From assembly GCF_030127105.1 (NCBI RefSeq), contig NZ_CP126161.1:1240001-1304000 (forward strand): a stretch of 64,000 nucleotides of DNA, given 5' to 3'. The notes below the pieces were generated by a model. The model was not told where the DNA came from, made no database searches, and saw only the letters and a program-made list of their open reading frames with translations. How positions within the stretch are numbered: position 1 is the first letter of the stretch; every line of letters begins with the position of its first letter. The DNA comes from Haloarcula pelagica (GTDB taxonomy: Archaea; Halobacteriota; Halobacteria; Halobacteriales; Haloarculaceae). The translations under genes were made by a program, and so were the position numbers. This document shows, piece by piece, positions 37,744 through 41,820 of this stretch.

Positions 37744-39021
37744 ATGACCGTACTGGAGGACGCCCGGGCGGCCGTCGACGCCGGTCCCCTGTGTGACCAC
37801 TGTCTGGGCCGCCTGTTCGCCGACCGGAGTTTCGGCCTCTCGAACGCCGAACGCGGCCGCTCGCTGCGGGTAACGCTCGCGCTCGACGCCGACGAACCCT
37901 TCGAAGCCAGCGACGACTGCTGGGTCTGTGAGGACGAGACAGCCCGGATCGACTGGTGGGTCGAGCAGGCCGTCACCGCCGCGCGCGGCTACGAGTTCGA
38001 CACCTACCAGGTCGGGACGCGCGTCCCGCCGCTGCTGGAGGAAAACGACGCGCTCCTGCGGGAGGACCTGGGGATGGACGCCGACGCGGGCGAGGCGCTG
38101 AAGACGGAGTTCAACCGCGAGGTCGGCAAGCGCATCGGTCGGGAGACCGGTGCCGAAGTCGAGTTCGGGCGCCCGGACGTGCAGTTCACGATCGACCTGG
38201 CGACCGACGAGGTCGACGTACAGGTCAACTCCGCGTTCGTCTACGGCCGCTATCGCAAACTGGAGCGGGACATCCCCCAGACGAAGTGGCCCTGCAACGA
38301 CTGCAACGGCACCGGCCGCTGGCAGGGCCAGCCCTGTGACGGCTGTGACGGCACCGGCTACCGCTACGACGAGAGCGTCGAGCAACTGACCGCCCCGGTC
38401 GTCGTCGACGCGATGGACGGCGAGAGCGGAACCTTCCACGGTGCCGGCCGCGAGGATGTCGACGCCCTGATGCTCGATTCGGGCCGCCCGTTCGTCATCG
38501 AAGTCGAGGCGCCGCGGATCCGCAACGTCGATATCGACCAGCTCGAAGCCGACATCAACGCCTTCGCCGACGGGAAAGTCGAGGTCGAGGCCCTCCACCT
38601 GGCGACCTACGAGATGGTCGAGCGCGTCAAGGAACTGGACGCTTCGAAGACCTACCGGATGGACGTGGAGTTCAGCGAGGAAGTGACCGACGAGGCGCTC
38701 CAGGCCGCACTCGACGAACTGGCGGGGGCGACCATCGAGCAGGAGACGCCCCAGCGAGTGTCTCACCGCCGGGCCGACCTGACCCGAACCCGCGAGGTGT
38801 ACGCCGCCAGCGGCGAGTCGGTCGACGACCGCCACGCCGACATCCGCATCCACGGCGAGGGCGGGCTCTACGTGAAGGAACTGGTCTCCAGCGACGAGGG
38901 CCGGACCACGCCCAGCCTGTCGGGCCTGCTCGGCGTCGAGGCGGTCGTCACCGCGCTCGATGTCGTCGACGTGGAAGGCGAGGACGAGCCGTTCCTCACC
39001 GAAGAGTTCGTCCGGGAGTGA
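37744..39021 (+). CDS. pus10: tRNA pseudouridine(54/55) synthase Pus10
   Basis: 425 aa. The N-terminal zinc-binding THUMP-like part has LCDHCLGRLFAD and CWVCE. A DnaJ-like CxxCxGxG pair (WPCNDCNGTGRWQGQPCDGC) precedes the catalytic domain, whose HGAGREDVDALMLDSGRPF carries the catalytic Asp. It makes pseudouridine 54 and 55 in archaeal tRNAs, replacing bacterial TruB for Psi55. It lies upstream of rnhB in the same direction. Confidence 0.96.
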   Translation: MTVLEDARAAVDAGPLCDHCLGRLFADRSFGLSNAERGRSLRVTLALDADEPFEASDDCWVCEDETARIDWWVEQAVTAARGYEFDTYQVGTRVPPLLEENDALLREDLGMDADAGEALKTEFNREVGKRIGRETGAEVEFGRPDVQFTIDLATDEVDVQVNSAFVYGRYRKLERDIPQTKWPCNDCNGTGRWQGQPCDGCDGTGYRYDESVEQLTAPVVVDAMDGESGTFHGAGREDVDALMLDSGRPFVIEVEAPRIRNVDIDQLEADINAFADGKVEVEALHLATYEMVERVKELDASKTYRMDVEFSEEVTDEALQAALDELAGATIEQETPQRVSHRRADLTRTREVYAASGESVDDRHADIRIHGEGGLYVKELVSSDEGRTTPSLSGLLGVEAVVTALDVVDVEGEDEPFLTEEFVRE

Positions 39022-39107: not shown

Positions 39108-39740
39108 ATGCCATTCGGCGTCGACGAAGCCGGCAAGGGGCCGGTGCTGGGATCGATGTTCGCGGCGGCGGTCCGGGCGGATCCCGGGACGTTACCCGAC
39201 GACGTAGGTGACTCGAAGGACATCGCGCCGGTACGCCGTGAGGAACTGGCGGCGACGATCCGCGGGCGGGCCGCCGTCGGCGTCGCCGAGGTTCCTGTCG
39301 AGCGTATCGACGACCCCGAGACCGATATGAACACGCTGACCGTCGGCGCCCACGCCGACGCGCTCTCGGCGGTCGCCCGGGACGGCCTCTCGGGCCGTGT
39401 CGACGCGGGCGACACCGACGCCGAGCGGTTCGGCCGCCGCGTCGCCGACCGGGTCGCGGCCGACCTCACCGTCGTGGCCGAACACGGCGCCGACGAGACG
39501 GACCCGCTGGTGGGGGCTGCGTCGATTATCGCGAAGGTCGAACGGGACGCACACGTGGCCGCGCTGGCGGCCGAGTACGGCGACGTGGGCTCGGGCTACC
39601 CGAGCGACCCGACGACGAGGGCGTTTCTCGCGTCGTACGTCGACGACCACGACAGCCTGCCCGCGTGTGCGCGGTCGTCGTGGTCGACCTGCGAAGACGT
39701 GCTCGCGGCCGCAGCGCAGTCGACGCTGGGGGAGTTCTGA
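39108..39740 (+). CDS. rnhB: Ribonuclease HII
   Basis: 210 aa, full length. PFGVDEAGKGPVLGSMFAAA carries the first Asp-Glu pair. VGDSKDIAPVRREELAATIR and VVAEHGADETDPLVGAASII with AKVERD supply further acidic active-site residues. It cleaves RNA in RNA-DNA hybrids. A CGGTTTTGC element is about 30 nt upstream. It is convergent with secD across the gap that holds the candidate RNA. Confidence 0.95.
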   Translation: MPFGVDEAGKGPVLGSMFAAAVRADPGTLPDDVGDSKDIAPVRREELAATIRGRAAVGVAEVPVERIDDPETDMNTLTVGAHADALSAVARDGLSGRVDAGDTDAERFGRRVADRVAADLTVVAEHGADETDPLVGAASIIAKVERDAHVAALAAEYGDVGSGYPSDPTTRAFLASYVDDHDSLPACARSSWSTCEDVLAAAAQSTLGEF

Positions 39741-39770
39741 GCGCCGAGCCGTCGCTGGGAGAGTGAGATC

Positions 39771-39789
39771 GGAAAATCCACGAACGTGG
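39771..39789 (-). terminator. Hairpin plus T-run at 3' end of candidate RNA
   Basis: On the minus strand the 12-nt perfect palindrome CCACGTTCGTGG is followed by ATTTTCC, an intrinsic-terminator-like end for a minus-strand transcript. The same bases can alternatively pair with the 5' end of that RNA. Confidence 0.5.
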
Positions 39790-40138
39790 CTTGGACCTGG
39801 ACGGGAGATGTTTTCGACAGCCCCTGTGGCTCTTCCAGCACACGTGCCAGCGTTTAGCCGGGCTTCCACCGGCCTTGTCCTTGCGGACTTTAGCTGGGCT
39901 TGCACCAGCTTTTGCCAGCGTGCTGGATTCCCGAGCGCCACTTGCGCGGCGTCCGGTACTTGGCTTTGCCACCGATCCTGCCGGCGGGACCGGTCTTGGG
40001 CTGTGGCGGTTCTCCTTCAGAGCGTTAACCTCGGAACCCTGTTACGGGCTGCTTGGTTGTTGCCCCCAACGCATCCCGTTCCGTCCTGATCGGGCGGTCT
40101 GAGACGCGTCGTCCAGTGTGTCCCCGCGTTCGTGGGGA
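39772..40138 (-). ncRNA. Candidate structured non-coding RNA of unknown class, about 367 nt
   Basis: It fills the gap between convergent rnhB and secD, which has no convincing protein gene. On the minus strand a TATA box at 40161-40170 predicts a start near 40138. The ends pair: CCACGAACG (40135-40127) with CGTTCGTGG (39786-39778), and inside that CTGGACG (40116-40110) with CGTCCAG (39803-39797). Four hairpins in a row carry GNRA-type loops: CGCCGC-GCAA-GTGGCG (39951-39936), AGCTGG/CCAGCT with loop TGCAAGC (39910-39892), GTCC-GCAA-GGAC (39888-39877) and GCCGG/CCGGC with loop TGGAAGC (39873-39857). The RNase P box GGAAAGTCC and the SRP GGAAG-AGCA motif are absent. Exact ends are estimates. Confidence 0.6.
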
Positions 40139-40160
40139 AGTGAAGATAGGACGGCAGGGA

Positions 40161-40170
40161 TAATAAATCA
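40161..40170 (-). promoter_or_regulatory. TATA box for candidate ncRNA
   Basis: TGATTTATTA on the minus strand lies in a markedly AT-rich island (about 40157-40195) with no protein gene downstream. It is centred about 26 nt before the predicted RNA 5' end. Confidence 0.55.
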
Positions 40171-40266
40171 TTCTAATGAAATTTGGTACTACCCCGCACA
40201 CGACATATCTGTTACTCGACCATCACGTCTCGTCCGGCGAGCGGAGAACGGCGTCGAAAAACGGCG

Positions 40267-41820
40267 TCAGTCCTCGTCGAGCACGAAGCTCCGGAGGATG
40301 TCACCGTAGGCCGGTCGCGTGATGAGCACACCCAGCAGGACGCCGACGATGGTGATGATGGCGAACCCGGAGAGGTCGCCCAGCGACAGCACCATCAGCG
40401 GGCTCATCGCGACGATGGTCGTCGCCGCCGCCGCGCCGATGACCCAGAACGCCTTCCGGAACCGGCTCTGGAACACCCGGCCCGTCTCGACGTTGCCCTG
40501 CTGGAGGATCTCGTCGGCGATGATGATGAGGTCGTCCACCCCCGTCCCGATGACCGCGATGAACCCGGCCAGATGTGAGAGGTTGAGCGGATACTGGACG
40601 AACGCGACGAACCCGAGCAACAGGTACACCTCGGAGAGGGCCGTCACGACCATCGGTGCGGCCACCTCAGCGCGGCCGTAGCGGGCGTAGACGACGAAGC
40701 TCACCGCGAGCACCGCGAGCAATCCGGTGATCAGCGAGTTCTGCTGGAACTGCTGGGCCAGCGCGGGGTCGAGCGAGATGCTCTGGGAGTTCTCGAAGTC
40801 GAGCGGGGCCGGCAGCCGACCCGCCTTCAGGTTCAGTTCGATCTCGCGGGCCATGTCCATGCTGTCGGCCGGCAGGATGAACACCGGGTCGTTCTGGAAC
40901 GTGTTGTCGCGGAACGACTGTGCCAGCCCCGGTGCGACACCACGGGCGTAGAACGGCTCGCCGTTCAGCGTCGCGACCAGACACCGCCCCTGGGTCTGCT
41001 GGATGTCGCTGTGGTTGTAGTTCGTACAGGACCGGCGCTGGTCGAAGCCGGCCGCGACCATCTGCTGGCTGAACCGCTCGGCCGCGGCTTCCTCGACGGT
41101 GACCCGCGCGATCGGCCCCTCGCGCTGGGAGTTCTCGGAGGCCACGCCGGCGAACTCGTCCTGTGCGAGCACCTGATCGCGGACGTACGTCCCGTTGTCG
41201 GACGGATAGACGGCGTACATCCGGACGACACCACGCTCTTCGAGGATGCGAACGAGGTCCTCGCGGTCACGGCCCGGCGCCGTGATGCTGATGAACTGTC
41301 CGCCACCCGGCGCGCTGACCGTCTGGACAGAACCGCCGGAGAGCGCCGAGGTCCGGATCTTGTCCTGGACGCTCGTCACCATCTGCTGGCGCGTCTCACG
41401 GGTGACGCCGTCGCGGATCGTGTCGGCCTGGTAGCCCTCGGCCTCAAGCGCCGCGCGGAACTCCGCCTGGCTGACGTTGTCGGTGAAGATCTCGACGGTC
41501 CCGCTCTCACCCTGCGTGGTCGGCGCTCTGACCTCGACATCGATGGGGTCGAGCCCGAGTTCGTTCGCGACGTTCTGTGCGAGTTGGGTCGACTCGTTGG
41601 GAGTCACGTCGACGCCTTCGGCCGTCTGCCCGACGATGGGCGCCCGAATCCGGGTCCCCCCGCTGAGCTGGATGCCGTACTGCAGCGTCGTCGGTGCGTC
41701 GCTGGTGGCGTTGTTCGCCGTGTCACCAGCCGGAACGCTGGGGACGAACAGCGCGAGCGACGCGCCGAGCAACAACACGACGAGGACGACGATCCGCCAG
41801 TTCTCCCGGAGGGCGCTCAT
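40267..41820 (-). CDS. secD: Protein-export membrane protein SecD
   Basis: 517 aa. One N-terminal membrane helix (IVVLVVLLLGASLALFVPSV) is followed by a large extracytoplasmic domain (residues about 35-330) and five C-terminal helices beginning at SLITGLLAVLAVSFVVYARY. LAGFIAVIGTGVDDLIIIAD carries the conserved Asp pair of SecD/RND proteins. With SecF it drives late steps of Sec translocation using the ion gradient. Its ATG overlaps the secF stop by 4 nt. Confidence 0.95.
   Translation of the reverse strand: MSALRENWRIVVLVVLLLGASLALFVPSVPAGDTANNATSDAPTTLQYGIQLSGGTRIRAPIVGQTAEGVDVTPNESTQLAQNVANELGLDPIDVEVRAPTTQGESGTVEIFTDNVSQAEFRAALEAEGYQADTIRDGVTRETRQQMVTSVQDKIRTSALSGGSVQTVSAPGGGQFISITAPGRDREDLVRILEERGVVRMYAVYPSDNGTYVRDQVLAQDEFAGVASENSQREGPIARVTVEEAAAERFSQQMVAAGFDQRRSCTNYNHSDIQQTQGRCLVATLNGEPFYARGVAPGLAQSFRDNTFQNDPVFILPADSMDMAREIELNLKAGRLPAPLDFENSQSISLDPALAQQFQQNSLITGLLAVLAVSFVVYARYGRAEVAAPMVVTALSEVYLLLGFVAFVQYPLNLSHLAGFIAVIGTGVDDLIIIADEILQQGNVETGRVFQSRFRKAFWVIGAAAATTIVAMSPLMVLSLGDLSGFAIITIVGVLLGVLITRPAYGDILRSFVLDED

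Follow-up and report, generated by a model that had tools for sequence, protein, structure and literature searches.

A structured RNA gene in the rnhB–secD spacer

What occupies the 526-nt spacer (positions 39741–40266) between the convergent genes rnhB and a SecD/SecF-family gene in the window, the 64,000-nt stretch of the Haloarcula pelagica genome analyzed here? A preliminary description had noted a gap of this length between the two genes and read in it a large, ordered haloarchaeal RNA of unknown class, and both the gap and the reading held up: compensatory base changes, the mark of a structured non-coding RNA, are massive across homologs, and a scan against the Rfam models gave no family match. 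Judged from sequence comparison, the product of this gene (Table 1) is a large, structured non-coding RNA and represents a hitherto undescribed class, found in extremely halophilic archaea. We are highly confident that this RNA exists, that it is structured and that it has a genetic link to the nuclease HARP.

The minus strand, previously favored with some doubt, is borne out by three observations. Folded as RNA, the minus strand of 39772–40138 reached −173.5 kcal/mol, with a z-score of −6.1 relative to shuffled sequences vs. −2.5 for the plus strand; one core pair is G-U in 60 of 67 homologs and would be an A/C mismatch on the opposite strand; and a TATA box lies upstream of the minus-strand 5′ end, as the earlier promoter claim had required. 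This predicted promoter is conserved: over 50 loci, AT content peaks at 0.82–0.94 at −51 to −49 from the start of helix P2, and in most of these loci, many with unrelated upstream DNA, the TATA box keeps a near-fixed upstream distance. Its position therefore predicts an RNA start at the foot of helix P1, and the ends of the ∼365-nt gene were drawn from the promoter and the outer helix. Of the palindrome and T-run proposed as the 3′ end, the T-run is present but weak, with four T only. The gene for the pseudouridine synthase Pus10 lies just upstream of rnhB, at window positions 37744–39021.

Table 1. Features of the locus, in window coordinates; pairing percentages and both-side changes refer to aligned homologs.
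Feature	Position	Strand	Evidence or remark
rnhB (RNase HII)	39108..39740	+	PF01351; convergent neighbor, outside system
secD-like gene	40267..41820	-	PF02355; upstream neighbor, outside system
Structured RNA gene, ∼365 nt	39776..40139	-	homologs, consensus fold, fold z −6.1
TATA box TTTATTA, predicted promoter of the RNA	40161..40167	-	AT peak over 50 loci
P1 5′ strand CCACGAACG	40127..40135	-	72% paired, 50 homologs; both-side changes in 12/12 pairs
P1 3′ strand CGTTCGTGG	39778..39786	-	outer long-range helix, partner of 40135–40127
P2 5′ strand CTGGACG, long range	40110..40116	-	96% paired, 32 both-changed cells
P2 3′ strand CGTCCAG	39797..39803	-	partner of 40116–40110
P3 ACGCGTCTC/GGGATGCGT with apical hairpin CCGCCC/GGACGG	40069..40109	-	86%, 78% paired; both-side changes in 9/9, 6/6 pairs
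P4-P5-P6 stack: GGGGC/GCTCT, ACC/GGT, hairpin GCAGCCCGTAACAGGGTTC	40019..40066	-	core helices 1–3 and full-length alignment
Near-invariant GAAGGAGAACCG; GGAGA is the 5′ strand of long-range P7	40007..40018	-	P7 94% paired
P7 3′ strand (ACATCTCCCG)	39802..39811	-	alignment
P8 5′ strand ACAGCCC	39998..40004	-	95% paired, 62 both-changed cells
P8 3′ strand GGGCTGT, then conserved CGAAAAC	39810..39823	-	full-length alignment
P9 hairpin CCGGTCCCG/CAGGATCGG	39969..39995	-	122 both-changed cells, 8/9 pairs
Conserved AAGGCCAAGTACCGGA block (here AAAGCCAAGTACCGGA); GGCC is the P10 5′ strand	39952..39967	-	
P10 3′ strand region	39826..39833	-	full-length alignment
P12 hairpin, GCAA loop (CCGGACGCCGCGCAAGTGGCGCTCGG)	39931..39956	-	core helix 5 and full-length alignment
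P13 variable domain; hairpins 39893–39909, 39877–39888, 39857–39873	39835..39926	-	both-side changes in each

Comparison with known RNAs

Among the 4227 Rfam 15 families, none scored at or above its gathering cut-off in the window or at seven homologous loci, separate tRNA genes aside, and the rnhB–secD spacer itself contained neither a tRNA nor an Rfam match. Archaeal RNase P RNA (RF00373) and archaeal SRP RNA (RF01857), whose hallmarks had already been reported missing, gave no match at the RNA and are separate genes elsewhere in the same genome (C1:1475896-1476271 and C1:2947506-2947817, respectively). Sub-threshold matches to twister-sister (E 0.18; 19 bits vs. a cut-off of 34) and group-II-D1D4-1 (E 0.37) fell in different regions in different homologs and were therefore taken as chance.

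Several other identities were set aside. A cis-regulatory leader of secD does not fit, given that the RNA is situated downstream of that gene, is served by its own promoter and, in homologs elsewhere, has other neighbors; for HEARO or omega RNA of IS200/IS605 elements there was no Rfam match, and the neighbors in the window are rnhB and secD. Around ∼60 RNA loci, no transposon recurred among the annotated neighbor families. A mobile, viral or plasmid element was rejected, as no phage or plasmid record matched the window copy by DNA similarity, and the sole pattern match on a viral contig (L055) was backed by neither profile nor model. With archaeal RNase P RNA the RNA shares being a large folded archaeal RNA whose protein partner is an RNase P-type enzyme, but neither sequence nor structure matches; with the bacterial OLE, GOLLD, ROOL and HEARO RNAs it shares size, an ornate fold and a patchy distribution, but it has no Rfam 15 match, belongs to another domain of life and has another partner. 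We found no earlier description in a literature search that took in few subscription journals or preprints and no supplements. A halite metatranscriptome had yielded 22 conserved haloarchaeal intergenic RNAs without function (PMC7002113).

Homologs and consensus structure

A DNA search of 60 related genomes recovered 13 close homologs besides the window copy, 12 of which sit between rnhB and secD; the other, L013, comes from another genus and does not. A profile from these close homologs revealed six more in other families, most near full length, and a pattern drawn from the two stretches of highest conservation matched in Haloarcula, Halomicroarcula, Halapricum, Halosimplex, Halovenus, Halorussus, Halorubellus, Halorarius, Natrialba, and Haloferax. 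Duplicate removal left 54 different homologs, and the set later reached 67 core matches. Overall, more than 50 distinct homologs from many families of Halobacteriales, and two weaker ones from beyond the order, have one fold in common, each a single unit of 270–540 nt.

Aligned over their full length and without reference to structure, 50 homologs yielded 18 helices, including the long-range P1, P2, P7, P8, and P10. P1 and P2, the two long-range helices proposed at the outset, are present to the base and supported across the 50 sequences; P2 is 96% paired in register, vs. 39% and 51% when its partners are slid by one column. In the 67-sequence core alignment, which leans towards the structure because it was built to fit an earlier model of that core, 92.4% of cells pair, both sides change in 29 of 32 pairs, and covariation scores 0.595, compared with 0.199 after shuffling and a maximum of 0.110 with slid partners. 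Compensatory variants make the base pairing of P7 convincing by eye, GGAG/CTCC being replaced by GCAG/CTGC (L004, L005), GAAG/CTTC (L006, L026) and GGGG/CCCC (L021), and in P10 GGCC/GGCC alternates with GACC/GGTC (L016, L017, L050, L056, L059, L078).

Around this core, the domain separating P12 from P10 ranges in length from a few nucleotides to more than 150 nt, P13 being cut to a few nucleotides in L017, L020, L030, and L041. The L015 homolog (L015:1102-1630, genome G037) has extra stems inserted at P9: the insert is ∼150 nt long and packed with GC-rich hairpins. Among the unpaired stretches, GAAGGAGAACC and AAGGCCAAGTA hardly vary across homologs, and GAAAAC is near-invariant. A T-arm-like 3′ end, clear in L041 (CCGAG-UUCAAUU-CUCGG), would compete with P1/P2, a pairing that has good support, and was set aside.

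In the variable domain, the hairpins at 39857–39873 and 39893–39909 have a common loop consensus, GGUGNRAGYCC, which gives rise to the weak twister-sister match. Their loops, TGCAAGC and TGGAAGC, had been called GNRA-like, which this consensus contradicts; by sequence they look more like a T-loop (UGNRA) hairpin. Such hairpins resemble the T-loop hairpins of cobalamin riboswitches.

Distribution of the RNA gene

When 392 Halobacteriales genomes were searched with a covariance model of the core, with few candidates scored per genome (so that a few divergent RNAs may have been missed), the RNA turned up in 117 genomes from 42 of 90 genera, in a patchy pattern. In the genus of the window, the rnhB–secD spacer measures 482–532 bp in the four genomes with the RNA vs. 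39–222 bp in the ten without, and the gene is therefore a discrete module, gained or lost as a unit. Seven of the 117 genomes have two matches, although that in G037 may represent one RNA split by its insert. G310, G380, G283, and G320 each hold two unlinked copies, one more divergent than the other, and G226 has a tandem pair 444 bp apart (L113:5124-5708). Two Halorussus megaplasmids carry divergent copies beside HARP. At Haloferacaceae-type loci (L026:4607-4690, L144:6364-6447), a tRNA gene lies ∼0.4–1.3 kb from the RNA.

Outside Halobacteriales, the RNA was found in only one family among 34 HARP genomes (f26, probably Methanonatronarchaeia; 43.8 bits in G425 and 36.5 bits in G434); a match of 25.6 bits in G553 was left out of the count. 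The f26 loci (L204:1501-1626, L205:1501-1625) contain short RNA homologs near a potassium-channel-like gene, not near HARP.

Association with HARP and the Rnl3 ligase

HARP, short for Homolog of Aquifex RNase P, belongs to the VapC-like group of PIN nucleases. In the ∼60 RNA loci with surroundings available, the commonest neighboring gene family was TIGR03875 (RNA ligase partner, i.e., HARP). The protein adjacent to the RNA scored 265 bits against the TIGR03875 profile (cut-off 95.3) and matched solved structures of RNA-free RNase P (7e8j, E 4.8e-38). HARP adjoins the RNA in several families, with gaps of 23–51 nt where convergent and 108–149 nt where divergent, and G111 has HARP, the ligase and the RNA clustered together. 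In most genomes RNA and HARP are non-adjacent (∼830 kb apart in that of the window); on Natrinema and Halocatena plasmids HARP lies beside the ligase and not beside the RNA, and on a Salinigranum plasmid, searched as a plasmid alone, it has neither nearby.

Across the 392 genomes, HARP was present in 109 of 117 with the RNA and in 58 of 275 without it (Fisher p = 2e-43, a value not corrected for shared ancestry). When the Rnl3 RNA ligase was scored as well (TIGR01209), 62 genomes had RNA, HARP and ligase, 47 RNA and HARP, 57 HARP and ligase, eight the RNA alone, and one HARP alone (G389, 85% complete and with a weak HARP match); none had the ligase without HARP. Genomes with HARP thus carry the ligase, the RNA or both, with one fragmentary case as the sole exception, and of the 48 HARP genomes lacking the ligase, 47 have the RNA. 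Beyond the order, the ligase is present in 33 of 34 HARP genomes; the remaining one, G425, has the RNA. The RNA does not appear to have been overlooked in genomes with HARP and ligase: a search with laxer filters in 40 RNA-negative HARP genomes gave a best score of 24 bits vs. at least 52 in positives.

Among the eight genomes with the RNA and no HARP, six are metagenome-assembled and 81–89% complete, and two, G033 and G069, are near-complete with low-scoring RNAs. The latter RNAs (L146 and L148, respectively) are divergent, lack the P6 hairpin and occur with neither HARP nor ligase; they are possibly relics left after loss of HARP.

A tree of 59 HARP sequences calls for a minimum of 7 switches in ligase state and of 13 in RNA state. 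Since its rows were sampled by state, the tree demonstrates repeated change, not a tested correlation, and an independent-pairs test on these same state-chosen rows gave too few supported pairs to count as evidence. The acidic motifs FVxDT, EDFDL, and TEDxG are found in all 59 readable sequences (L236 reads TEDRGV), and these active-site motifs are kept in all three kinds of genome, including those with the RNA only.

The co-occurrence of HARP and ligase has been shown before, and the role of HARP in archaea asked (Seshadri and Gopalan, 2025; PMC12153264). Our system resembles that HARP/Rnl3 "RNA ligase partner" system (TIGR03875, TIGR01209) in having the same HARP and in occupying the same patchy set of halophile genomes; it differs in that the RNA is a third component, whereas the main text of that paper has no RNA gene, and in that the RNA covers HARP genomes without the ligase.

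Possible roles of the RNA

The near-exclusive co-occurrence of RNA and HARP suggests that HARP has an RNA partner, and the pattern of ligase or RNA beside HARP is simplest if both make the enzyme tolerable or useful. From this linkage we infer a mechanism to which we give an even chance: a dedicated large RNA would bind and control HARP and could replace the Rnl3 ligase as the condition for keeping it. The folded RNA would bind the HARP oligomer and restrain or direct its nuclease, and a cell would tolerate HARP either because the ligase reseals its cuts or because the RNA occupies it. The RNA would thus be a large antidote to, or regulator of, a toxin-like RNase, and a substitute for the ligase. 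As one would expect of a toxin-like enzyme, Haloferax volcanii deleted for HARP showed no phenotype (PMC12153264, PMC10941002). Against this reading stand a 2024 review that deemed an RNA-degrading toxin role of HARP unlikely (PMC10941002), the 57 genomes in which HARP and ligase manage without the RNA, the eight with RNA and no HARP, and the usual non-adjacency of the two genes.

An RNA restraining a ribonuclease would follow the same logic as type III toxin–antitoxin systems (ToxIN, CptIN, TenpIN). In those, however, a short RNA of tandem repeats serves as antitoxin, is cut by the toxin and is encoded in the same operon, directly upstream of the toxin gene. The haloarchaeal RNA, by contrast, is a single folded unit transcribed from a promoter of its own and lies convergent with, divergent from or, often, unlinked to HARP, which is a PIN protein; a type III antitoxin RNA as such was therefore rejected.

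Alternatively, the RNA may be a client, its 5′ end trimmed by HARP and, where Rnl3 is present, its ends circularized, with its real function lying elsewhere. The co-occurrence with HARP would follow, the end-joining helix (P1/P2) would ready the paired ends for ligation, and there is precedent in that Rnl3 circularizes RNAs in Thermococcales and that small-RNA maturation by HARP and ligase has been proposed (PMC12153264). We nevertheless find this explanation doubtful. The TATA box puts the predicted start within a few nucleotides of P1, therefore leaving little or no leader for HARP, while 47 genomes with RNA and HARP lack the ligase and 57 keep HARP without the RNA.

Control of HARP by the RNA need not mean inhibition: the two may form a working ribonucleoprotein, with the RNA as a scaffold or specificity subunit that directs HARP to particular RNAs in processing or defense. 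The long near-invariant unpaired stretches of the core, GAAGGAGAACC, AAGGCCAAGTA, and GAAAAC, suggest specific contacts with protein or RNA, HARP forms 12-subunit assemblies in solved structures, and the patchy distribution is akin to that of accessory systems. On the other hand, no guide-like variable segment was identified in the RNA, its variable domain consisting of stable hairpins that are nearly missing in some homologs, and we judge such a particle unlikely.

An indirect link, in which both would be accessory genes that the same lineages keep patchily, gains from a co-occurrence test that ignores phylogeny and from the usual distance between the genes; we think it quite improbable given their adjacency in several families and in two orientations, the many state changes within families, and a ligase-or-RNA rule that holds in 47 of 48 cases in the order and 33 + 1 of 34 outside it. 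That the RNA is a ribozyme or RNA-repair factor doing the work of the ligase is hardly credible: RNA and ligase do look interchangeable next to HARP, and the RNA is large with a conserved unpaired core, but its likeness to catalytic RNA families does not rise above chance (the best being twister-sister, as above) and 62 genomes keep both RNA and ligase.

Significance

Apart from those of the ribosome, RNase P and SRP, few large folded RNAs are to our knowledge known in archaea, and the RNA described here would add a large, densely folded class. HARP owes its renown to being a minimal, RNA-free RNase P. Its deletion was without effect in two archaea, and its function there was described as unclear in a 2024 review (PMC10941002). 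A structured RNA that shadows HARP, and is nearly always there when the ligase is missing, makes the role of HARP directly testable, and Haloferax is a genus with good genetics in which to take up the question.
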